A stretch of DNA of 61,834 nt from an uncultured Thiotrichaceae bacterium. Its GTDB lineage: Bacteria; Pseudomonadota; Gammaproteobacteria; Thiotrichales; Thiotrichaceae. Every line of letters starts with the position of its first letter. The first letter of the stretch is position 1. The stretch is taken from the NCBI GenBank assembly GCA_937925855.1, contig CALAMO010000036.1, positions 1 to 61,834 of the forward strand. Direction: 5' to 3'. The translations under genes and the position numbers were made by a program. Positions 23,772 through 34,653 of the stretch are shown piece after piece. The notes below the pieces were generated by a model, which was not told the origin of the DNA, searched no databases, and saw nothing but the letters and a program-made list of their open reading frames with translations.

Positions 23772-24488
23772 CTATCCCGGCAGTATTAATGACTTAAATA
23801 CCGGCAGTTTTCGCTGTGCCGCGCTGACTTCGCCCTTGCGCAAATCCCCTGCTAAACAGCTGATCGCACTCGCGTTGACCCCGCCTACCGTGCCATCGAT
23901 AAAGCGATGCACATGGCCGCAATACACCCCACACACCTGTGGAAAACGGGCTAACAGTGCGTCGAGCCGCGTTACATCCTGCCAATCAGCGTACTGAAAC
24001 GGGTCGGGTATGCCGTCGGCTTCAAACGGCGGGTGATGCAGGAACAGGGCTGCAGGTTTAGTGGTGTCGGCTAATAACATTGCTTCCAAGTGGGCCAGAC
24101 GTTCCGCACACAGCTGCCCTTTGTGACTGCCTTCATTCAGGGTATCTAGCATGAGCAGGCGTACTGGATAGCGTTCGATCGCATATTGAATCCAGCCCTG
24201 GGCGGACTGCGCGCAGTGTTCGGCACTAAAAGCTGCCAGTAGTGTCGCGCGTCGGTCGCGGTTGCCAGGAATGAGACAGTAGGGTGCCTTGAGTTGATCT
24301 AATAAATGGCGGGCAATAGGGTATTCTGCGGCTAAGCCCCGATTCGCAATGTCTCCCGTGTGGATCACTAAGTCGGGCTGCGTGGGCAGTGCATTAATGG
24401 CGCTGACGCAGTTTGCCAGATCCGTGCTGCGCTGGGGCGCATCAAGTGCGAGGTGTGTGTCTGAGATTTGAACGACTTGTAGGCTCAT
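23772..24488 (-). CDS. CpdA-like metallophosphoesterase (3',5'-cyclic AMP phosphodiesterase)
   Basis: The 238-residue protein is a class III cyclic-nucleotide phosphodiesterase of the calcineurin-like fold. All metal-site motifs are visible: SDTHLA (residues 9-14), HTGDIAN (about 43), PGNRDRR (about 75), FLHHPPFE (about 150) and YCGHVHR (about 190). CpdA relatives hydrolyse cAMP. The related Nudix hydrolase gene nudF and parE, common neighbours elsewhere, are absent here. It is transcribed alone and diverges from the MazG-like gene. Confidence 0.82.
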   Translation of the reverse strand: MSLQVVQISDTHLALDAPQRSTDLANCVSAINALPTQPDLVIHTGDIANRGLAAEYPIARHLLDQLKAPYCLIPGNRDRRATLLAAFSAEHCAQSAQGWIQYAIERYPVRLLMLDTLNEGSHKGQLCAERLAHLEAMLLADTTKPAALFLHHPPFEADGIPDPFQYADWQDVTRLDALLARFPQVCGVYCGHVHRFIDGTVGGVNASAISCLAGDLRKGEVSAAQRKLPVFKSLILPG

Positions 24489-24626: not shown

Positions 24627-24995
24627 ATGAAGCAGGATCTGCCGCCCTCGATCAGTGATCTTACTCGCGAACTCATTGAGTTTCGCGATGCACGTGACTG
24701 GCGCCAATTTCACTCCTTAAAGGATTTAATCCTGTCGCTGAATCTTGAGGCGGCTGAGTTGCTAGAGTTGGCGCAGTGGAAGCCGGAAGGCGACTTTGAA
24801 CAAGAAGCAAAGGGTGCACCACTCCAGCAGCGCCTGCGTGAGGAGTGTGCCGATGTGTTGTTATATCTGCTGCTGATAGCTGAGCGTACCGGGATCGATC
24901 TACAGGCGGCGGCGGCTGAGAAAATCAAAGCGAATGCCGAGAAATACCCTGTGGCGAAGGCGCGTGGCCGATCGACAAAGTACAATCAGCTGTAA
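24627..24995 (+). CDS. MazG-like nucleotide pyrophosphohydrolase
   Basis: The 122-residue single-domain protein has the all-alpha NTP pyrophosphatase pattern: RDARDWRQFHSLKDLILSLNLEAAELLE with the EAAELLE metal motif at about 47-53, then EECADVLLYLLLI (EExxD) at about 73-85, and KYPVAKARG at the end. Members of this RS21-C6/dCTPase-like group clean up non-canonical or excess dNTPs. GGAG lies ten bases before the ATG. It is convergent with sat. Confidence 0.88.
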   Translation: MKQDLPPSISDLTRELIEFRDARDWRQFHSLKDLILSLNLEAAELLELAQWKPEGDFEQEAKGAPLQQRLREECADVLLYLLLIAERTGIDLQAAAAEKIKANAEKYPVAKARGRSTKYNQL

Positions 24996-25079: not shown

Positions 25080-26270
25080 TTACTCCTGCTGATAATGCGC
25101 CATCAGAATTTTGGCCACCTCGGGGCGGGAAAATTCAATCGGTGGCGCCTTGCCTTCACTCAGCATCTTACGCACAGCGGTGCCGGATAGCAGCACAAAA
25201 TCTTCTTTGGTGTGATCCGGCGCTTCTGACATCATAACCACCTTATCCAGTTTTTTCGAATAGGCCGTGTGATCCGCTTTAAACAGCTCGATTTTCAGTG
25301 CACCAGCTGGAATTTGGTCAAAAATCTCCTGCGCTTCAAACGGTTCATAATAATCGCCAACCCCAGCGTGGTCGCGTCCAATAATAAAGTGAGTCGCCCC
25401 CATGTTTTGGCGGAAGACGGCGTGGAGCAGCGCTTCACGCGGGCCAGCATACAGCATGTCGAAGCCATAACCGGTCACCATCGCTGAGTTCGGCGGAAAG
25501 TAGAGGTCAATCATGGTGCGAATCGCCGCATCGCGAACTGGGGCGGGAATATCACCGGGTTTGAGTTTACCTAACAACATGTGTATCACCAGTCCGTCAG
25601 CATCTAGGCGCTGCATGGCCATATGGCACAGCTCTTCGTGGGCACGATGCATGGGATTGCGCGTCTGGAAGGCGACGATGCGCTGCCAGCCATTGGCGGC
25701 AATTTGGCTACGAATTTCTGCTGCGGTGCGGAAGGTGTCCGGGAAGTCAGTGGCAAAGTAACTGTAGTTCAGTACCTGAATCGGGCCAGCGATGGCGATG
25801 TTGCCTTGTGCGCGAAATTCAGCAACGCCGGGATGTTCGGGGTCTGTGGTGCCATAGACCTGTTGGATTAGCGTCGTCAGCTCGTCCTCTGAAAATACGT
25901 CGATTGCTTCAATTTGCTGGACGGCTAATACCGGTTCGCCTTCGACGTTGGGGTCGCGTAAAGCAATACGATCACCAACTTTTAGCGCACCAGCATCCGC
26001 GATTAAATTAAGTACCGGTGTGGGCCAGAACAGCCCAGTAGAAGTGCATAAGGATTCGCCTACTGATAAGGCGTCTGCCTTGGTCATAAAGCCATCCAGC
26101 GGAGTAAAGTAGCCAGCGGCGAGCATGACCGCGTTACCGGCAGCGGCAGAGCTTACAGTAATTGCGGTTAACGCCTGCGCATCGTTATTGAGCTGCTGCC
26201 GTTCTGAGTCATTAGCGACCAACAGGGGTCTGAGCGCGTCTGCGCCATGAGGAGAGATAAGAGTATTCAT
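25080..26270 (-). CDS. sat: Sulfate adenylyltransferase (ATP sulfurylase), dissimilatory type
   Basis: Sat interconverts ATP plus sulfate with APS plus pyrophosphate. In sulfur oxidisers it runs toward ATP and sulfate. The 396-residue homo-oligomeric type is recognised by QTRNPMHRAHEEL (about residue 200), GRDHAGVGDYYEPFEAQEIF (about 296), and LSGTAVRKMLSEGK near the C-terminus. It lacks the CysDN arrangement of assimilatory enzymes. It diverges from aprM-aprB-aprA across 420 bases, so the whole APS pathway is clustered. Confidence 0.96.
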   Translation of the reverse strand: MNTLISPHGADALRPLLVANDSERQQLNNDAQALTAITVSSAAAGNAVMLAAGYFTPLDGFMTKADALSVGESLCTSTGLFWPTPVLNLIADAGALKVGDRIALRDPNVEGEPVLAVQQIEAIDVFSEDELTTLIQQVYGTTDPEHPGVAEFRAQGNIAIAGPIQVLNYSYFATDFPDTFRTAAEIRSQIAANGWQRIVAFQTRNPMHRAHEELCHMAMQRLDADGLVIHMLLGKLKPGDIPAPVRDAAIRTMIDLYFPPNSAMVTGYGFDMLYAGPREALLHAVFRQNMGATHFIIGRDHAGVGDYYEPFEAQEIFDQIPAGALKIELFKADHTAYSKKLDKVVMMSEAPDHTKEDFVLLSGTAVRKMLSEGKAPPIEFSRPEVAKILMAHYQQE

Positions 26271-26566
26271 CGGCGTTCCGTTATTTATTGTAGGTCAGCA
26301 ACTGTCAGGGGTATGCGGTGTAAGCGTGCTTAAAGCCGCCGAGCAGCTGCTGCAAAGGCTGAAAACATATCCTGATTGTGCTTAATTGTCTATACCTCTG
26401 AGTAAGCGTTTAATCTATGATTATGAGATTTGCAGTCAGATAATAAACAGCGTTGAATAAGAAGAAACCTAACGCAACAACAGGTTCAGGGCGCTGGGTT
26501 ATCAGTCACTGTGTAGATCGCGAGCTCAATAATGAAGCCGTCTGAGGTATGAATTAATTAAATTGA

Positions 26567-26594
26567 TTGACATAATAATAAAATCTAATATTCT
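26567..26594 (+). promoter_or_regulatory. Candidate promoter for aprMBA
   Basis: A perfect -35 TTGACA (26567-26572) is followed after 16 bases by TATTCT (26589-26594), a four-of-six -10. The surroundings are AT-rich. It would give a leader of about 90 bases. Confidence 0.5.
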
Positions 26595-26626
26595 TGCTGG
26601 CGTTAACCCTTTAGGATGTGAATCTC

Positions 26627-26645
26627 TTTAGATTTACTGTCTAAA
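26627..26645. promoter_or_regulatory. Dyad in the aprM leader
   Basis: TTTAGA, seven bases, TCTAAA forms a perfect 6-bp dyad 45 bases before aprM and downstream of the candidate promoter. AATCT-CTTT-AGATT overlaps it. It could be a repressor site or an RNA hairpin. Confidence 0.35.
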
Positions 26646-26690
26646 ACATTGTCCGTGCGCTAGCTGGAAACATCAGAGGAACACCTTAAC

Positions 26691-27545
26691 ATGCTTACTA
26701 CTAATCCATTTGCCGAAGTGTCGGCGTTCATATCACCCGAGGTGATGCAGGGCTATGTCGTCCTGATGATACTGCTGGTTATCGGCGGTACGTTGTTGGA
26801 TGTTTTGCACAAGCAAAGCGCCAAATATTTCTTTGCGGTGGCTAAAAGCGCAGAGCAAGATGCCAAGCAAAAGGTGGATAGCAGTCAGAAGATGAGTCTG
26901 GCGATGAAAACAGTCGCTAATGAGGTGCTTACGTCATCCGAATTTTGTAACCAGCGCCGCCGTCTGTCCCACTTAATGACCATGTATGGCTTTGTCTTCT
27001 TTGTGGCGACCACGGCAATTATGATTTTTAGCTACACCGGTTCAGGCACAGAAGCGCCGGGCTTAGTGGCCTTCTTATGGCACCTCGGCGCGCTGTCGCT
27101 GTGTGTAGGGGGTTACTGGTTCTGGTTTGCGATTCGGGTTGACGTAGCTTCTGAGGGTGTGCGCTGGAACCAATTTAATGGTCGCGGTGATCTATTTATT
27201 CTGGGCCTGCTGTCAATGGCGACGTTTGCGCTGCTGTGGTCATTCACACAGGCGATCGGCGCTTCAGCCTTGTCGACATTCTTGTTTGCACTCTTCATTA
27301 TTAGTTCTACGTTCTTGTTTAGTAGTGTGTACTGGTCTAAATTTGCACATATGTTCTTTAAGCCCGCCGCCGCTTATCAGAAGAAAGTGGCGCAGGCCGA
27401 CGGTTCCAATGAGAACCTGCCCAGTGATTATGACTTGTCAGATCCAGCGGTGCATGAGCAGTTCCCAGATGTTCCCGAATACATGGGTAAAAATCCACCC
27501 AATATGGGGCTTGGTATCAAGCGCGAAGCTCCGAATCACTTTTAA
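26691..27545 (+). CDS. aprM: APS reductase membrane-associated protein AprM
   Basis: The 284-residue integral membrane protein directly precedes aprB. It has about five transmembrane segments (roughly 20-40, 97-116, 124-148, 166-186, 190-213), and a soluble tail with DLSDPAVHEQFPDVPEYMGKNPP. AprM is known from purple and other sulfur bacteria as the probable link of APS reductase to the membrane electron carriers, in organisms that lack Qmo. No qmo gene is in the window, which fits. The identification rests on position and topology as much as on sequence. Confidence 0.8.
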   Translation: MLTTNPFAEVSAFISPEVMQGYVVLMILLVIGGTLLDVLHKQSAKYFFAVAKSAEQDAKQKVDSSQKMSLAMKTVANEVLTSSEFCNQRRRLSHLMTMYGFVFFVATTAIMIFSYTGSGTEAPGLVAFLWHLGALSLCVGGYWFWFAIRVDVASEGVRWNQFNGRGDLFILGLLSMATFALLWSFTQAIGASALSTFLFALFIISSTFLFSSVYWSKFAHMFFKPAAAYQKKVAQADGSNENLPSDYDLSDPAVHEQFPDVPEYMGKNPPNMGLGIKREAPNHF

Positions 27546-27587
27546 ATTGACTGCCTGTTAACAGGCTTTCCAGGCTGGAGATTTATT

Positions 27588-28070
27588 ATGCCAACTTTTG
27601 TGAAAATGACACGCTGCGATGGTTGCGGCCACTGTGTTGATATTTGTCCATCAGATATTATGCACATTGATAAGACAACCCGTCGGGCGTACAACATTGA
27701 ACCTAATATGTGTTGGGAATGTTATTCCTGCGTGAAAGCATGTCCACACAATGCGATTGACGTGCGTGGCTACGCTGACTTTGCGCCACTAGGGCATTCT
27801 GTGCGGGTGAAGCGTGATGAAGAGAAGGGCGTGATCGCCTGGCGCATCAAGTTCCGCAACGGTGAGAAAGATATGGACCTGTTGGCCCCGATCACGACTA
27901 AGCCTTGGGGCAGTGGTACACCGGTGCTGAGCGAGGTTGATGCACCGAGCCAGGAGCAGCGCGACAGCCAGCTGCTATTCAACGAGCCGAAGTACATTCG
28001 GTTGGATGATGGTGATATTCACACCTTCGAGTCGAATGGCTTGGTGATGAAGGAAGGGGTGTACTACTAA
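27588..28070 (+). CDS. aprB: Adenylylsulfate reductase beta subunit
   Basis: AprB is the iron-sulfur subunit of APS reductase. The 160 residues contain two complete [4Fe-4S] motifs: Cys10, 13, 16, 20 and Cys42, 45, 48, 52, each followed by Pro. The C-terminal part (about 65-160) is the usual AprB tail that wraps around AprA. Its stop codon overlaps the aprA start by one base (TAATG), so the two subunits are translationally coupled. Confidence 0.98.
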   Translation: MPTFVKMTRCDGCGHCVDICPSDIMHIDKTTRRAYNIEPNMCWECYSCVKACPHNAIDVRGYADFAPLGHSVRVKRDEEKGVIAWRIKFRNGEKDMDLLAPITTKPWGSGTPVLSEVDAPSQEQRDSQLLFNEPKYIRLDDGDIHTFESNGLVMKEGVYY

Positions 28071-29962
28071 TGAAGTACAAAACGATTATTGAAGACGATA
28101 TTGATGTTCTGGTCTGCGGTGCTGGCCTTGGCGGTACCGGTGCGGCTTTTGAAGCGCGCTATTGGGGACAGGACAAAAAAATTGTCATTGCGGAGAAAGC
28201 GAATATTGATCGCTCCGGTGCGGTAGCGCAGGGCCTCTACGCGATTAACTGCTATATGGGGACACGTTTTGGCGAAAATAACCCGGAAGATCATGTGCGC
28301 TATGCGCGTATCGATCTGATGGGCATGGTGCGCGAAGATTTGCTCTTTGATATGGCGCGCCACGTCGATTCTGCCGTTCACCAATTTGAAGAGTGGGGCC
28401 TGCCGCTGATGAAGAACCCGAAGACGGGTTCTTATCTACGTGAAGGGCGCTGGCAGATTATGATTCACGGTGAGTCCTACAAGCCGATTGTGGCTGATGC
28501 CGCGAAGAAATCAGCGGATCAGGTGTTTAACCGTATTTGTGTCACCCATCTGTTGATGGATGATGCCAAAGAAAACCGCGTAGCGGGTGCTGTTGGCTTT
28601 AACGTGCGCACCGGTAATTACCATGTGTTTAAGTCCAAGACGGTAATTGTGGCCGCAGGTGGCGCCTCTAATATCTTTAAGCCGCGCTCGGTGGGTGAAG
28701 GGGCCGGTCGCGTTTGGTATGCGCCTTGGTCATCTGGCTCTGCGTACGGTCTGCTCATTGAAGCAGGTGCGAAGATGACGCAGATGGAAAACCGTATCGT
28801 GTTGGCCCGTTTTAAAGACGGTTATGGCCCGGTAGGCGCGTACTTCCTACACCTGAAGACGTATACTCAAAACGGTATGGGTGAAGAATACGAATCTAAG
28901 TGGTGGGATTCACTGCAAGAAATCGTCGGCAAGGAATACCTGGACCCTGAGGCTTCGCACCTAACGCATCGCCCTATTCCGACTTGCTTGCGTAACCATG
29001 CTTTCATTCAGGAAGTGAATGCGGGTCGCGGCCCCATCCATATGGTCACGATGGAAGCTTTCCAAGATCCACACCTCGAAGAGATCGGCTGGCATAACTT
29101 CTTGGGGATGACTGTAGGTCAGGCTGTGCTATGGGCGGCTACCGATGTTGATCCCAAGCATGAAAACCCTGAATTGACGACCTCTGAGCCTTATGTCATG
29201 GGTTCACACGCTACGGGCTGTGGTGCGTGGTGTTCTGGGCCAGCTGATTTGTCGCCGCCGGAGTATCAGTGGGGCTATAATCGGATGACAACCGTAGAAG
29301 GTCTGTTTGGTGCGGGTGATGCCGTCGGCGGTACGCCGCATGCCTTCTCTTCTGGTTCATTCACTGAAGGTCGAATTGCCGCTAAGGCTGCTTGTCAGTA
29401 CATTGACGATGGTAAGGCGGAAGGCATTCAGATTTCTGACGAGCAAATTGAGCGCCGCAAAGCAGAAATCTATAAGCCGATGGAAACGTATAAGACCTAC
29501 CGCAATGAAATTACTGCCGGTTCGGTTAATCCACATTACATCAACCCACGCCAGGCACTAGACCGTTTGCAGAAGTTGATGGATGAGTACGCCGGAGGGG
29601 TGACCGTCAGCTATATGACCAATGAAAAGCTGCTGAATATTGGTCTGAAAAAGCTGAAGTCACTGGAAGAAGACCTGGAGAAGGTGGCGGCTGAAGATAT
29701 TCACGAGCTGCTGCGCGCTTGGGAAATCAAGCACCGTCATCTGACCTCCGAGTCCGTGGTGCAGCACACCCTGTTCCGCAAAGAAACGCGCTGGCCCGGC
29801 TACTACTATCGCGGTGATCATCTTAAATTAGACGATGAAAACTGGCATGTGCTAACCGTTTCACGGCGTGATCCAGAGACGGGTGAGTACACTATGGAAA
29901 AAGCACCGCTGTATCATTTGATTGATGTTGATGAGGAAAAAGATCAGGCGCAGGCTGCCTGA
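28070..29962 (+). CDS. aprA: Adenylylsulfate reductase alpha subunit
   Basis: AprA is the FAD subunit that in sulfur oxidisers joins sulfite to AMP to give APS. The 630-residue protein has the FAD-binding start DVLVCGAGLGGTGAAFEARYWG (about residues 12-33), ANIDRSGAVAQGLYAINCYMG, and IVAAGGASNIFKPRS. The active-site region is RNHAFIQEVNAGRGPIHM, and VEGLFGAGDAVGGTPHAFSSGSFTEGRIAA is the second FAD motif. Length and motifs are normal. Clustering with aprM and sat, and with soxB in the same window, argues for the oxidative direction. Confidence 0.98.
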   Translation: MKYKTIIEDDIDVLVCGAGLGGTGAAFEARYWGQDKKIVIAEKANIDRSGAVAQGLYAINCYMGTRFGENNPEDHVRYARIDLMGMVREDLLFDMARHVDSAVHQFEEWGLPLMKNPKTGSYLREGRWQIMIHGESYKPIVADAAKKSADQVFNRICVTHLLMDDAKENRVAGAVGFNVRTGNYHVFKSKTVIVAAGGASNIFKPRSVGEGAGRVWYAPWSSGSAYGLLIEAGAKMTQMENRIVLARFKDGYGPVGAYFLHLKTYTQNGMGEEYESKWWDSLQEIVGKEYLDPEASHLTHRPIPTCLRNHAFIQEVNAGRGPIHMVTMEAFQDPHLEEIGWHNFLGMTVGQAVLWAATDVDPKHENPELTTSEPYVMGSHATGCGAWCSGPADLSPPEYQWGYNRMTTVEGLFGAGDAVGGTPHAFSSGSFTEGRIAAKAACQYIDDGKAEGIQISDEQIERRKAEIYKPMETYKTYRNEITAGSVNPHYINPRQALDRLQKLMDEYAGGVTVSYMTNEKLLNIGLKKLKSLEEDLEKVAAEDIHELLRAWEIKHRHLTSESVVQHTLFRKETRWPGYYYRGDHLKLDDENWHVLTVSRRDPETGEYTMEKAPLYHLIDVDEEKDQAQAA

Positions 29963-29978
29963 TTACCTCAGCTTCAGG

Positions 29979-30004
29979 GGGCTGTCGCAGTGTGGCGGCA
30001 GCCC
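29979..30004 (+). terminator. Hairpin after aprA
   Basis: GGGCTGTCGC, loop, GCGGCAGCCC forms a 10-bp stem with one G-T pair just after the aprA stop. Only TTCAGTC follows, so it may stabilise the aprMBA message or partly terminate, leaving lower expression of the genes downstream. Confidence 0.5.
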
Positions 30005-30125
30005 TTCAGTCAATAATAGCCTTGGTTCCTCCGTATTATTTCCCCTCCCTGTTATGTTTTTGATCTCGGATGGCTTGTTGTAGCGACAGCCATAAAAATC
30101 CTGTGATCCTTATCTGGAACGCCCA

Positions 30126-30479
30126 ATGAATATAATCGAACAGTCAGATGAAGATATCTTCGCGGTTGCCCATCCGATGTGGGATGACCTTATTAAGTAC
30201 TCTAACACTGGGGAATACGGAAAATTCATTCGGAATTTTTCCTATGAGTTATTGTTTGGCCTCAACGAAGTTGAAATCGGTAAGCAGTTTGCGAAAAGTG
30301 AATTAACCCGCAGTCTTGATACAAACTATGACTGTTTGGGTATTATTCGCCGTGGTGAGCATGTATCCGTGCTTTATCGGGTGCGCAGTACCAAAAAAGC
30401 GGGTGAATGGCTGGGGCGTCTGGTGCTCGGCTATAACAAAGATGATGAGATTAAGATTTATGGTGCGTCGGTTTTTTAG
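30126..30479 (+). CDS. Conserved-looking protein of unknown function in the apr locus
   Basis: The 117-residue soluble protein (MNIIEQSDEDIFAVAHPMWDD) has a helix-rich first half and a beta-rich second half (DCLGIIRRGEHVSVLYRVRS, RLVLGYNKDDEIKIYGASVF). This order is compatible with an NTF2-like cone fold, but that is only an impression. No signal peptide or Cys is evident apart from one. It lies 163 bases after aprA on the same strand and 34 bases before the SlyD-like gene. A role in APS reductase assembly or in control of sulfur oxidation is conceivable but unproven. Confidence 0.6.
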   Translation: MNIIEQSDEDIFAVAHPMWDDLIKYSNTGEYGKFIRNFSYELLFGLNEVEIGKQFAKSELTRSLDTNYDCLGIIRRGEHVSVLYRVRSTKKAGEWLGRLVLGYNKDDEIKIYGASVF

Positions 30480-30513
30480 CCGCCTGTTTTAGCCCTCCCT
30501 ACGGAATGAGTAA

Positions 30514-31053
30514 ATGAACGATCTAGCAATGGAAGAGCCGGTTGGTGACGGTAAGTTGGTTGAGCTGACGTATAAAGTGCTTGATGTAAAGACGAATAGC
30601 GTGCTGACGGCAGTGGAGTTCCCCATCGGTTATGTTCACGGTGTGAATGAGATTTTGGCGCCGCAGGTCACCGCTGAGTTAGAGGGTAAGCTGCCGGGCG
30701 ATGTGATTGAAGTGCCGATTGACTGTCGCGAGCTATTTGGCGAGCGCGATGAGTCTCTGGTGTTTACTGATCGTATCGAAAATGTGCCAGAGGAGTATCG
30801 CAGCGTTGGAACTTCGGTGCTGATGGAAAGTGAGCAGGGCAACACCAAGAGCTTCCTGGTGACGCGCGTTGATGAAACTTCCGTCACCATTGATGGTAAT
30901 AATCCCCTCTGTGGGCGCGAGGTGGTGTTCAGGCTGGACATTGTTTCCGTGCGCACAGCAACGGAGGAAGAGATTGAGCTGGGTGGCCCGATCGGTGCAG
31001 AGCCGGACATCAGCGAGATTGTTGGTGATAGCCAAAACGTGAAGCCGGTCTGA
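30514..31053 (+). CDS. SlyD-like FKBP-type peptidyl-prolyl isomerase
   Basis: The 179-residue protein shows the SlyD layout: an N-terminal FKBP strand (LVELTYKVLDVKTNSVL), GYVHGVNEILAPQVTAELEGKLPGD, the inserted IF chaperone domain (about 75-125), and the C-terminal VTIDGNNPLCGREVVFRLDIVSVRTATEEEIELG. The metal-binding His-rich tail of enteric SlyD is missing, so a nickel role is unlikely. Cytoplasmic chaperone or isomerase activity is likely. Its place just downstream of aprA suggests a maturation role for the flavin or iron-sulfur enzyme; this is inference. Confidence 0.82.
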   Translation: MNDLAMEEPVGDGKLVELTYKVLDVKTNSVLTAVEFPIGYVHGVNEILAPQVTAELEGKLPGDVIEVPIDCRELFGERDESLVFTDRIENVPEEYRSVGTSVLMESEQGNTKSFLVTRVDETSVTIDGNNPLCGREVVFRLDIVSVRTATEEEIELGGPIGAEPDISEIVGDSQNVKPV

Positions 31054-31054
31054 T

Positions 31055-32161
31055 TTGTCTCACCTATATGCAGAGACGCTATTAGCGCCAGGCCTTGGTG
31101 GCTCGTTGCAGTGGCGTTATCAGAATAATGGCCTTGATCTGCTGGCAATCATTGATCCTGAGTCGCCGGTCTATGGCGCGCTGCGGCGGGCTATAGACCG
31201 CTTCGAGCATACGGTGTTTGCGCTGAGCTTAAACAAGCCATCGCTGATTGAATGGGCAAATTCCCAAGAAACATTGCAGGACGGTGCGGATCGGCGTGAA
31301 TTGCGCCTTGGCAGTGCGCATGTGTTCCAGCAGTCGATTGAGCTGTTGCAGGGTATGCAAATGATGACTGATCGTGCGGACGATCCATCTCGGCTGGCTG
31401 CTATTCATCATAATATTGGCGATGTAATGGGCTTTATTGGTCAGCGCAGCGGCAGCGTACATTTTCTAGAGCAGGCCGCTTTGTCCTATGAGCAGGCGCT
31501 TGAAATACGCACCGAGGATACGATGCCGCTGGCGTGGGCGCAGTCTACCTGTAATCTGGCGTTGGTGTTGCAAACGCTTGGGCAGCTGGAAGATGATGCG
31601 AGCCTGCTCAAACAGGCGTTGCGCTCCTTCCAGCAGGCTGTAGTGCGGCTGCCGCGAGCGGAAGACAGTGTGTCGTGGGCGGCGGCCTTTGCTAATGTGG
31701 GTGTAGTGTTATACCGGCTGGGCACGCAGCGGCGCGGTGCGCGCACCTTGGAGCAGTCGTTGGTCGCGTTTCGTAATGCGCTGAGCGAGCGCGCCCAGCC
31801 GTCACAGCCGCTGGCCTGGGCGATTACCCAGAATAATATCGCCGCCACGCTCCAAGCGATGGGTGAGCATGAAGAGGATATTGGCGCGTTGGAAGCGTCA
31901 ATCCCGCTATATGATACGGTGTTGAAAGTGCTCGATCGCACTGAATTGCCATTAGTTTGGGCAATGGTTGCGGCTAATCGAGTATCGGCGATGTATTCCC
32001 TGGCTGGGGAGTCAGATTATCTCGATATGGCTGAGGCGTCGGTCGCTGGATTTGAGGAAATTTGTGACTTGTTTGCGGATACTGAATACACGGACTACCA
32101 GACCAAAGCCGCCGCCCGCGCACAGCAGGGACGGGCACTTGTTGCGGCATTACAAGTGTGA
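31055..32161 (+). CDS. Tetratricopeptide-repeat protein
   Basis: The 368-residue protein consists of about five to six TPR-like repeats of around 50 residues with the recurring pattern P-L-A-W-A-x-x-x-N-x-A-x-x-L-Q-x-x-G (for example PLAWAQSTCNLALVLQTLGQ and PLAWAITQNNIAATLQAMGE), from about residue 90 to 330. It has no signal peptide, so it is probably a cytoplasmic scaffold. The start is a TTG one base after the SlyD-like gene's stop codon, which suggests translational coupling; a later start is possible. The partner is unknown. Confidence 0.75.
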   Translation: MSHLYAETLLAPGLGGSLQWRYQNNGLDLLAIIDPESPVYGALRRAIDRFEHTVFALSLNKPSLIEWANSQETLQDGADRRELRLGSAHVFQQSIELLQGMQMMTDRADDPSRLAAIHHNIGDVMGFIGQRSGSVHFLEQAALSYEQALEIRTEDTMPLAWAQSTCNLALVLQTLGQLEDDASLLKQALRSFQQAVVRLPRAEDSVSWAAAFANVGVVLYRLGTQRRGARTLEQSLVAFRNALSERAQPSQPLAWAITQNNIAATLQAMGEHEEDIGALEASIPLYDTVLKVLDRTELPLVWAMVAANRVSAMYSLAGESDYLDMAEASVAGFEEICDLFADTEYTDYQTKAAARAQQGRALVAALQV

Positions 32162-32269
32162 CAGTATTTTGTTTGAAGGGTAGAGGTTAATGCCATTTTG
32201 CCTTGGCGCTGTTGCGGGTGATTAAGGTGAAATGTCTGAATATTTGATTATTGATAAGAGGAAAATGTG

Positions 32270-32431
32270 ATGAGTGAACCAAGTAAGCAACGGCCTAAAG
32301 TACCTGAAGGTGTGACGGAGTATGTGAATACTCGTCAAATGGAAGCGAATGAGAAGGGTTTTGTGGGCTATGAAACCACCTGGAAGTCCTTTCAGAAAGA
32401 AGTAAAGTACCAGACGCCTAAAAAGCCCTGA
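32270..32431 (+). CDS. 53-residue protein of unknown function closing the apr locus
   Basis: An ATG preceded by AGAGGAAA codes for a 53-residue hydrophilic protein beginning MSEPSKQRPKVPEGVTEYVN. It is rich in Lys, Glu and Pro and has two Trp/Tyr/Phe positions (YETTWKSF). It has no Cys and no membrane segment, and I recognise no family. A terminator-like hairpin starts 12 bases after its stop, which suggests that it is the last gene of the locus. The codon use looks natural for the neighbourhood, but at this size the call remains tentative. Confidence 0.55.
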   Translation: MSEPSKQRPKVPEGVTEYVNTRQMEANEKGFVGYETTWKSFQKEVKYQTPKKP

Positions 32432-32442
32432 GCTGATAGTGA

Positions 32443-32480
32443 GTATGGGCAGCTTGCTTGCTGTCCATACTTCGTCTTAT
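32443..32480 (+). terminator. Terminator at the end of the apr locus
   Basis: GTATGGGCAGC (32443-32453), loop TTGCTT, GCTGTCCATAC (32460-32470) forms an 11-bp stem with one G-T pair, followed by TTCGTCTTATT. It separates the sulfur locus from mrdA. The remaining ~220 bases before mrdA hold a possible TATACT -10 (32562-32567) without a convincing -35. Confidence 0.75.
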
Positions 32481-32703
32481 TGTCCCGCTATCGCCTAAAG
32501 CTTTTACTGCGTCTAATAAAAATTTAATGTGGCTAAAGGTTTTTCCAGTGATGAGTTCCGCTATACTGATAGCACGCTGCTAAGTGTGTTCGAGTGGGGC
32601 AGTAGCTTATTGTTCCATCAGTCTGCTGACTGACTGCGCTACAGAAGAGAAAAGTAACTAAGCACACGGATGGCTATGAGTATTTATAAACGGAACGTCT
32701 GTT

Positions 32704-34653
32704 ATGCCACTGGGTGAGCGTATATCCATTAAGACTGAGCGTGATGAACAGCAACTGTTCAACGTGCGTGCTATCGTGGCTGCGCTGTTGGTGGCGTGTG
32801 CGCTGCTTGCGATTGTGGGTCGTTTGTATGTGCTGCAAATTCAAAGCTATGACCAATATACTGAGCTTTCAGAGAAAAATTATCAGAAACGCATTCCAAT
32901 ACCGCCTATTCGGGGGCTGATTTATGATCGCAATGGCGTTCAAATTGCGGACAACCACGCCCAATACGTGCTCGAAGTGGTGCGCGACAGCGTGCCTGAT
33001 CTTAATAATGACGGCAAGAAGCGCTGGGCCGACCTACAGCTAATGCTGGAGCGGGTGAATAAGATTGTGCCGCTGACTGAAAAAGAGATTCGTATTTTTA
33101 ATCAGCAGGTTCAGCGCCGCAGCCGCCATCAGCCGACGCCGCTGAAAGAAAACATGAGCAATGAGGAAGTCGCACGCTTTGCGGTCAATAAGCTACGTTT
33201 CCCTGGCGTCAATCTTGAGCGGCGCATGCAGCGTTACTATCCATTGAGGAATATTGCCAGCCACGTTATCGGTTACGTCGGGCGTATCGATAAGCGTGAT
33301 TTGCGGCGTCTTGATCCAGAAAATTATGCGGGTACGACGCACGTCGGTAAGGTAGGTATCGAAGCGGCGCATGAAGATCGTTTGCACGGCTACACCGGTT
33401 GGCAAACAGTTGAAGTCAATGCGCATGGTAAGCACAAAGGTTCTCTGTCCAAAACTAACCCCGTTGGTGGGCAGGATTTAATTCTGGGGCTGGATATTAA
33501 CCTGCAAATTAAAGCCGAAACCCTACTGAAGGGTGAGCGCGGTGCGATTGTGGCCATTGATCCGCGTACTGGCGAGTTATTGGCTATGGCGAGCGTACCT
33601 ACCTTCGACCTCAATTTATTTGTTGATGGTATTTCACATAAGAATTATAAAAATCTGCGTGATGATCCCGATCGGCCCTTATATAACCGGGCGTTGCAGG
33701 GTTCTTATCCGCCGGGTTCAACCATTAAACCAATGATCTCGCTGGCGGGCCTGTATGAAAAAACCATTTGGCCGGGTAAGCGCGTGTACGACCCTGGTTT
33801 TTTCCAGCTGCCGGGGCATAAGCACCGCTACCGCTGTTGGCATCGATCAGGGCATGGCTCTATCGATATGAACCAAGCGATTGCAAAGTCGTGTGATACC
33901 TACTTTTATGATATGGCCTACCGTATGGGGGTAGAGAAGTTCGCGGGCTATATGAATTTGTTCGGTTTTGGCGAAAAGACGGGGATTGACCTAACGTCGG
34001 AGTCACGCGGTTTAATGCCAACGCCGCAGTGGAAGAAGCGCCGCCACCAGCAGCACTGGTATCCCGGCGATACGGTGAATATTGGTATCGGCCAGGGATA
34101 CTGGCTGGCAACGCCGTTACAGCTGGCGCATGCAACCGCAACGGTTGCGATGCGCGGTAAGCGTATCCGGCCACGGGTTTTACGCAGCGTGCGCACCGCT
34201 AAGGATCAGCCGGAAACGCTGCTGGAGCCCGATGTGATTTCCCATATCCCTACGCAAAACGAACGCCACTGGGAAATGGTGATTAACGGCATGATTAACG
34301 TGATGCACTCTGATTATGGTACGGCACGTTCGTCTGGCGAGAATTCGTCCTTTATTATCGCGGGCAAGACAGGTACCGCCCAGGTGTTTGGGATCGCACA
34401 AAATTCTAAATATGATGCGGAGCGTTTAGCCAAACGCCTGCACGATCATTCGCTTTTTGTGGGGTTTGCACCGGCGGATAATCCGCGCATTGCGGTGTCG
34501 GTGATCGTGGAGAATGGCGGTGGCGGCAGTAAAGTAGCGGCACCAACAGCGCGTAAAATTATAGATGCCTATTTACTGGATCGTTATGATGAGCCGGTAG
34601 ATGAAGAGGAGGGCAGTGAGGCGTTGAACTTAACCCGAAGACTGGCACAGTGA
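32704..34653 (+). CDS. mrdA: Penicillin-binding protein 2
   Basis: PBP2 is the transpeptidase of the elongasome. The 649 residues show a single N-terminal membrane anchor (about 20-42), the pedestal region starting PIPPIRGLIYDRNGVQIADN, and the transpeptidase domain. The active-site motifs are GSYPPGSTIKPM (SxxK), AKSCDTYFYDM (SxD/N) and IAGKTGTAQV (KTG). The gene is followed by rodA after ten bases, its partner glycosyltransferase, as is usual. Confidence 0.97.
   Translation: MPLGERISIKTERDEQQLFNVRAIVAALLVACALLAIVGRLYVLQIQSYDQYTELSEKNYQKRIPIPPIRGLIYDRNGVQIADNHAQYVLEVVRDSVPDLNNDGKKRWADLQLMLERVNKIVPLTEKEIRIFNQQVQRRSRHQPTPLKENMSNEEVARFAVNKLRFPGVNLERRMQRYYPLRNIASHVIGYVGRIDKRDLRRLDPENYAGTTHVGKVGIEAAHEDRLHGYTGWQTVEVNAHGKHKGSLSKTNPVGGQDLILGLDINLQIKAETLLKGERGAIVAIDPRTGELLAMASVPTFDLNLFVDGISHKNYKNLRDDPDRPLYNRALQGSYPPGSTIKPMISLAGLYEKTIWPGKRVYDPGFFQLPGHKHRYRCWHRSGHGSIDMNQAIAKSCDTYFYDMAYRMGVEKFAGYMNLFGFGEKTGIDLTSESRGLMPTPQWKKRRHQQHWYPGDTVNIGIGQGYWLATPLQLAHATATVAMRGKRIRPRVLRSVRTAKDQPETLLEPDVISHIPTQNERHWEMVINGMINVMHSDYGTARSSGENSSFIIAGKTGTAQVFGIAQNSKYDAERLAKRLHDHSLFVGFAPADNPRIAVSVIVENGGGGSKVAAPTARKIIDAYLLDRYDEPVDEEEGSEALNLTRRLAQ

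Follow-up and report, generated by a model that had tools for sequence, protein, structure and literature searches.

The window analyzed here, a stretch of 61,834 nucleotides from an uncultured Thiotrichaceae bacterium (contig CALAMO010000036.1 of assembly GCA_937925855.1; contig 36 in a draft of 3.57 Mb with 96.6% completeness), carries the genes aprMBA of an adenosine 5'-phosphosulfate (APS) reductase and, downstream of them, four genes for proteins of 117, 179, 368 and 53 residues, named A117, FKL179, TPR368 and S53. The association of A117 and FKL179 with APS reductase is strongly supported by genome surveys, and that of S53 is well supported. The gene products probably help to build or complete APS reductase in many sulfur bacteria. 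Our preferred explanation, to which a probability of about one half is assigned, is that A117 is an assembly factor or accessory subunit of AprBA, FKL179 a dedicated chaperone, S53 a protein of the same assembly and TPR368 a clade-specific scaffold. AprBA and Sat make sulfate from sulfite in many sulfur oxidizers. A117, as a family without annotation that follows the AprM-type enzyme closely, offers a concrete target, namely its need in assembly or in electron transfer.

The apr locus and its downstream genes

In the window, aprA (28070..29962, + strand) codes for the flavin adenine dinucleotide (FAD) subunit and aprB (27588..28070, +) for the subunit with two [4Fe-4S] clusters; they match the NCBIfam equivalogs TIGR02061 (1105.6 bits, cut-off 641.75) and TIGR02060 (214.5 bits, cut-off 135.65), respectively. 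Upstream lies aprM (26691..27545, +) for the membrane protein of the lineage I APS reductase, which weakly resembles QmoC (37.8 bits against a cut-off of 300). Having aprA and aprB equivalogs with aprM upstream, the locus belongs to Apr lineage I. A sequence-only reading of the window had placed four genes 3' of aprA on the same strand and interpreted them as a 'maturation or control set'. All four could be located as claimed: A117 at 30126..30479, FKL179 at 30514..31053, TPR368 at 31055..32161 and S53, a conserved protein, at 32270..32431, all on the + strand. As relatives exist in many genera, these open reading frames are considered real.

A117, FKL179 and S53 occur with the AprM-type reductase

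Genomes and loci are given below by the handles G and L, respectively. The profile sample combined the window's own genome with those of 56 relatives; of these 57, 25 contain aprA and 18 contain A117. A117 was identified in 18/18 genomes with a lineage I (AprM-type) aprA, in 0/7 with lineage II only and in 0/32 without aprA (Fisher p 3e-15 for A117 versus lineage I aprA, kinship of the genomes being ignored). Fifteen of the 18 encode a full-length AprA at 1055-1117 bits and three carry contig-end fragments that are 83-85% identical to the window AprA. The seven aprA genomes without A117 have the second AprA type only (888-904 bits), for which the label lineage II follows PMC2211403.

From the phylum, 398 genomes were then drawn, with that of the window among them; 40 contain aprA and 14 contain A117. 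Lineage I AprA was present in nine of the 40 (eight full-length, one fragment in G222), and A117 in 9/9 of these. The AprA matches of the other 31 scored at most 1006 bits or were fragments, and 22 of their loci that were compared are 45-49% identical to the window AprA. The only exception to the absence of A117 from lineage II-only genomes was G167, one of these 31, in which another contig opens with a partial A117 and an FKL179, so that an aprA in front of them would be missing from the assembly. In G194, A117 adjoins a 100-residue AprA fragment (79% identity) that is below the aprA threshold. Genomes with two aprA copies (G044, G049, G065 and G135) have the set beside the lineage I copy only, and the same was observed, in fragments, for G222.

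Weak relatives of A117 were also found in three genomes without aprA (G211, G114 and G239; 68, 41 and 36 bits), in different surroundings. Distant relatives in genomes without aprA lie near BLUF-like photoreceptor genes in L161 (8976-9383) and L162 (8600-8950) and beside a STAS-like gene in L163 (8994-9374), the neighbors being assigned by eye; they keep R76 and G93 of A117 and not R98.

In a tree of 50 AprA sequences rooted within lineage II, the AprM-type enzymes are grouped with a support of 1.0. They are split between lineage Ia, which itself has a support of only 0.19, and a group with a support of 0.97 that combines the SAR11-like protein, G451 and an AprM-bearing clade termed Ib (support 1.0). 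A panel of 80 genomes was hand-picked from the surveys: 30 of lineage Ia, one SAR11-like, G451, eight Ib, 21 lineage II and 19 without aprA, two aprA-less genomes being left out. FKL179 was present at 253 bits or more in 30/30 lineage Ia genomes and in 0/50 others. The best SlyD-like match in those 50 reached 122 bits, and second copies inside lineage Ia genomes, 20/30 of which carry another SlyD-like match elsewhere, reached up to 149 bits. S53 was identified in 21/30 lineage Ia genomes and in 1/50 others (G017, in which no aprA was detected). In five lineage Ia genomes S53 and aprA are found on separate contigs; no constant neighbor of S53 away from apr was observed in the loci read.

The genes are thus not widespread without apr, a check that the sequence-only reading had proposed: a strong A117 match without a lineage I aprA above threshold was found in three genomes (G801, G167 and G194), each near a contig start, FKL179 in 0/50 and S53 in the single exception G017. 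The proposed general link of the set to apr holds for the AprM-type (lineage I) enzyme, but not for lineage II, and one AprM-bearing clade is without the set.

dsrA was identified in 27/30 lineage Ia and 0/8 Ib genomes of the panel. It was not found in a search of the window's own genome (G000), though aprMBA is present there. The reverse was observed for G003, G004, G006 and G007 of the same genus, which have dsrA and no aprA.

Alphaproteobacteria and SAR11-like genomes

Among 289 genomes drawn from the class of G101, aprA was identified in 15. Three of these are lineage Ia genomes with A117, FKL179 and S53, two have lineage II, and eight are the Ib genomes, in which AprM is present and AprA is 66-69% identical. 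In G451 the AprA is 73% identical, and a lineage II copy is present besides. Downstream of aprA lies a TPR368-like gene (L175 1-864) with 33% identity across 288 residues. Since G451 has this gene but not A117, FKL179 or S53, the TPR gene can accompany aprMBA alone. Loci L178-L185 represent an alphaproteobacterial clade with aprMBA in which dsrA was not found and the helper genes are absent.

The remaining one of the 15, the small genome G633 (1.2 Mb), shows the order aprM-aprB-aprA-A117, followed by a TauE/SafE-like gene (assigned by eye). Its taxonomic order, here called SAR11-like, presumably is SAR11, judging by the size and content of the genomes. In 97 genomes of this order, aprA was found in 68/97 and A117 in 67/97. 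A117 was present in 66/66 genomes with an aprA match of at least 500 positions, in 0/2 with an aprA fragment only and in 1/29 without aprA; the lone carrier without aprA is G801, where A117 lies 195 nt from the contig start. In 28/30 loci (28 genomes) A117 starts 0-25 nt past the aprA stop, which suggests translational coupling. The two outliers are L236, taken as an alignment artefact, and L262, from a genome with an incomplete aprA match. FKL179 and S53 were not found within these 30 short loci. SAR11, a group abundant in the ocean, probably keeps A117 beside aprA. Pelagibacter (SAR11) is described as carrying AprBA, perhaps for sulfite detoxification (PMC5069961).

Organization of the set in loci with FKL179

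A scan of public genomes with FKL179 yielded 418 confirmed relatives, and the best 80 of the 418, all in named records, were used. These named loci were selected for carrying FKL179; the genome surveys were not. Their record titles cover gamma-, beta- and alphaproteobacteria and one deltaproteobacterial metagenome-assembled genome. A117 lies ahead of FKL179 on the same strand in 80/80 loci, with a median gap between the matches of 39 nt. AprA was found upstream in 74/80; in the remaining six the contig ends at most 708 nt upstream of FKL179. Where over 1.6 kb of sequence precedes the AprA match, AprM was detected by tblastn in every case (57/57 loci). The distances of A117 (r 0.70) and FKL179 (r 0.68) correlate with those of AprA, as do those of AprM (0.79). 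Other genes of the operon correlate at least as strongly, and these values prove nothing alone.

S53 was present in 73/80 loci, in 13 of the 73 on the other strand, and it lies 37 to 7374 nt downstream of FKL179 or, in L068, upstream of it. Relatives of TPR368 that are at least 50% identical were found in 35/80 loci (one a short fragment) and weak ones in three. The idea of a single four-gene maturation cassette was rejected because TPR368 is clade-restricted, S53 shifts strand and contig, and in SAR11-like loci neither FKL179 nor S53 accompanies A117. Of the claim that the set is tied to APS reductase, the part on A117 and FKL179 stands strongly and that on S53 well, but the four genes do not form one unit. 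In L045 (5306-6102) the TPR gene is cut to a 51-residue match, and a second AprA fragment (81 residues, 58%) follows S53; this looks like a rearranged or decaying locus.

TPR368 is a tetratricopeptide repeat (TPR) protein, as predicted, with a match to TPR_10 of 41.4 bits (cut-off 27.5). The window gene starts with TTG at 31055, and its relatives (L021-L055) begin at the same site with TTG, GTG or ATG, mostly TTG or GTG, a pattern that suggests a conserved low translation. For S53 no Pfam or PDB match above threshold was obtained, and NCBIfam, searched with the window S53 only, gave nothing credible.

Properties of A117 and FKL179

A117 had been called an unknown protein, and indeed no credible Pfam or NCBIfam family was found with 37 members; a PDB sequence search gave nothing credible either. 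Twenty-three positions are invariant in the 37 sequences, and 21 are at least 97% conserved in 67 sequences including 30 SAR11-like ones, among them W19, Q54, R75, R76, G93, G97 and R98. Neither A117 nor S53 has a conserved cysteine in the alignments, and a role of either as a metal-cluster carrier was rejected for this reason. The AlphaFold2 model of A117 (pLDDT 84.9, weak at residues 47-53) was compared with known structures. The best rows were tied at Z 10.7 to 9.6, and 818/1000 aligned chains had Z of at least 5. Matches include the NTF2-like TraM (4ec6; Z 10.6, 2.3 Å, 97 residues), a DUF3887 protein (4hyz; Z 10.2, 2.6 Å, 102 residues) and NTF2 (1jb5; Z 9.7, 3.3 Å, 104 residues). The fold of A117 is therefore predicted to be NTF2-like (cystatin-like alpha/beta).

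FKL179 had been described as SlyD-like without the metal tail, and both points were borne out. The profile of 46 relatives matched E. coli SlyD (2k8i) with E 2e-22, and 0/46 aligned relatives have two or more His/Cys past residue 150. The predicted model (mean pLDDT 74.7) contains an FKBP domain with an insert-in-flap chaperone domain and aligns with T. thermophilus SlyD (4odo) at Z 13.4 (3.8 Å, 151 residues, 27% identity). FKL179 matches the SlyD equivalog PRK10737 of NCBIfam with E 1.4e-15 at 57.7 bits, below the cut-off of 174 bits, and a Pfam search gave nothing for the 46 relatives. Many invariant positions fall within residues 91-135, approximately the region of the SlyD insert domain. 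At the positions that we take to be those of the FKBP isomerase pocket, Y20 and F139 are invariant, Y/F75 is kept, and the aligned SlyD pocket Asp is replaced by Leu31 in 44/46.

Other SlyD-like relatives of FKL179 (114-149 bits) were observed in L216 (3586-4290), L218 (8611-9141) and L219 (511-1035). By eye, they lie at or near the end of the ATP synthase operon, after atpC in L218 and L219, and are perhaps further client-dedicated SlyD-like proteins. In five genomes of genus g2, which we guess to be Thiothrix-like, a SlyD-like gene was found 0.88-0.94 kb after the lineage II aprA. In the one of the five that was read, G033 (L222 7911-8447), it lies between adk and the gene for a pyrophosphate-dependent phosphofructokinase (names by eye), and a similar gene is present beside that phosphofructokinase gene in G021 (L220 8238-8750) with no aprA in view. 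A convergent SlyD beside lineage II aprA was thus not counted for Apr, because the gene sits with the adk and phosphofructokinase genes and, in L220, away from aprA.

Stem-loops and expression

Directly 3' of aprA in the window a stem-loop was found (29977..30006, +) with a 12-bp stem, no T tract and a z of -2.2. In 50/68 loci the 70 nt after aprA fold with z below -2 (median z -3.4; 47/68 in an earlier run), compared with 4/77 after A117, 5/80 after FKL179 and 3/68 and 10/68 in coding controls. A stem of at least 7 bp within 160 nt of aprA was present in 58/68 loci, counted without shuffle control, and in 11 it has a T-rich tail. The position of the stem-loop is common to the relatives and its sequence is not; in SAR11-like loci aprA and A117 nearly touch instead. 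This pattern would fit mRNA segmentation or partial termination that yields more AprBA than helpers. As a hairpin usually lies between aprA and the set outside the SAR11-like group, expression of the two may be only partly coupled.

The sequence-only reading had seen the first strong terminator after the last gene. A terminator-like stem-loop with a 13-bp stem indeed follows S53 (32441..32472, +). However, a scan of 26200-32800 found six sites with a shuffle mean of 6.3, which is not above the shuffles, and a stable hairpin is already present after aprA, so the terminator claim holds only in part.

Evolution and genomic surroundings

As A117 occurs both in Ia and in the SAR11-like group, the simplest history would be that the ancestor of lineage I already had it and that G451 and Ib lost it. 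In these surveys FKL179 and S53 are confined to lineage Ia, apart from the S53 of G017. The window AprA is 90-95% identical to that of Granulosicoccaceae loci, one short fragment of 83% being left out, versus 83-88% within its own family, and eight genomes of the same genus, 67-100% complete, are without aprA. On these two grounds the window operon seems to have been acquired horizontally.

AprA and AprB were compared for inserts or prolines specific to lineage Ia that might be client sites. Pro280 and Pro423 of AprA are found in Ia only among the groups compared. An AprA insert near 288-299 separates Ia from Ib, is also present in lineage II and is absent from the SAR11-like protein, and so does not track A117.

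Upstream of aprM, sat is encoded on the opposite strand (25080..26270, -), and a penicillin-binding-protein gene begins at 32704, downstream of S53. Near sat and apr, a metallophosphoesterase-like (CpdA-like) gene (23772-24488) and a MazG-like gene (24627-24995) were noted by eye. By eye as well, a similar phosphoesterase gene lies immediately 3' of aprA in L194 (7611-8372).

Proposed function and alternatives

From the identity of the Apr proteins, the genes and their order, the predicted folds, the co-occurrence and the stem-loop, we infer the following mechanism. Most likely, A117 is a binding partner of AprBA, probably of AprA, and acts either in assembly or as a small accessory subunit. 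In the operons of sulfur oxidizers (lineage Ia) it is joined by FKL179, which would be a SlyD-type chaperone specialized for one client and may hold apo-AprA or apo-AprB during insertion of FAD and the two [4Fe-4S] clusters. The small S53 probably belongs to this assembly as well, and TPR368 would be a scaffold specific to a clade and perhaps produced at a low level. The stem-loop after aprA would fit a surplus of the enzyme over its helpers. For ordinary SlyD, interactions with proteins of Fe-S assembly have been reported (PMC10653786), and by analogy a client with Fe-S clusters and FAD is plausible. In Allochromatium vinosum, in which aprMBA is Alvin_1119-1121 and sat has been mutated (PMC3779200), Alvin_1122, a 'conserved hypothetical protein', is given with -2.73 in an expression table of PMC11267869, the abstract of which states that Apr genes are suppressed; going by gene number, Alvin_1122 comes next after aprA (Alvin_1121) and may be a counterpart of A117. 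A stronger form of the proposal is that A117 is a stoichiometric third soluble subunit of the AprM-type APS reductase, from sulfur oxidizers to SAR11-like bacteria, with FKL179 dedicated to this enzyme. This is offered tentatively, as a possibility with the odds against it; if true, the enzyme studied so far was incomplete.

Several results weigh against the preferred explanation. A117 was not found in whole-genome searches of G451 and the eight Ib genomes, FKL179 and S53 were likewise not found in these genomes in the panel, and the whole genome of the SAR11-like G633 is without FKL179 or S53. S53 is absent from 9/30 lineage Ia genomes, yet occurs in G017 without a detected aprA. As the AprM-bearing Ib clade is without A117, FKL179 and S53, the three are not universally required and AprMBA can be made without them; Ib may cope without helpers, perhaps at a low flux, as no dsrA was found there. 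Because the Asp aligned to the SlyD isomerase pocket is lost, a peptidyl-prolyl isomerase activity of FKL179 appears doubtful. SlyD-like paralogues in the atp and adk/phosphofructokinase operons imply that genes of this class are not restricted to Apr. For the A117 model, Foldseek gave no match at E of 0.001 or below, and the structural matches to NTF2-like proteins are 3-18% identical in the rows shown and indicate no function.

The main rival is that A117 serves not in assembly but in docking or electron-transfer coupling, as a subunit connecting AprBA with AprM and the membrane. This would agree with its occurrence with the AprM-type and not the lineage II reductase and with the tight coupling to aprA in SAR11-like genomes, and the redox partner of the lineage I enzyme is described as unknown in PMC2211403. 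However, A117 is absent from G451 and from the eight genomes of an AprM-bearing clade, and without a conserved cysteine it has no obvious cofactor site, and docking is considered rather improbable. A117 might also be a ligand-binding regulator of AprBA that senses, for example, AMP or APS via an NTF2-like pocket. NTF2-like folds often bind small ligands, at least 97% of 67 sequences keep R75, R76 and R98, and BLUF-like photoreceptor genes (by eye) adjoin the distant relatives in L161 and L162. The near-absolute link to aprA fits a structural partner at least equally well, and the regulator is regarded as quite unlikely. A protective role, in which the set would shield the AprBA of aerobic sulfur oxidizers against damage by oxygen or sulfite, is very unlikely: the set occurs in records named Thioalkalivibrio and Thiohalophilus, which are aerobic, but also in the anaerobic phototrophs Rhabdochromatium and Thiorhodococcus (L070, L100). 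Operon hitch-hiking, in which the genes are present by descent and horizontal cassette transfer without acting on Apr, would suit the apparent horizontal acquisition of the window operon, but is hardly credible given the co-retention in 66/66 streamlined SAR11-like genomes, the absence when aprA is absent and the retention of S53 on a contig apart from aprA in five lineage Ia genomes.

Comparison with known systems

No function for such a set had been known to the sequence-only reading, and in the literature search, with subscription journals mostly outside its scope, no title or abstract opening describes it. The papers on apr loci PMC2211403 and PMC3779200 treat aprM, aprBA, sat and qmo, and the word 'hypothetical' occurs in neither main text. 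With the sulfur-oxidizer Apr lineage I (AprMBA) of Meyer and Kuever, the window shares the order aprM-aprB-aprA and the presence of AprM. FKL179 shares the FKBP and insert-in-flap fold with the SlyD/SlpA FKBP-type chaperones, but differs from them in the missing metal tail, the change of the pocket Asp to Leu, a score below the equivalog cut-off and its place beside aprA wherever the contig allows. A117 shares its predicted fold with the NTF2-like superfamily, from which it differs by an identity of 3-18% and by the lack of a credible Pfam or NCBIfam match. Ring-hydroxylating dioxygenases have small NTF2-like beta subunits. These too are small NTF2-like proteins whose genes adjoin that of a large redox subunit, with which they pair; the likeness to A117 is proposed for the arrangement rather than the sequence.

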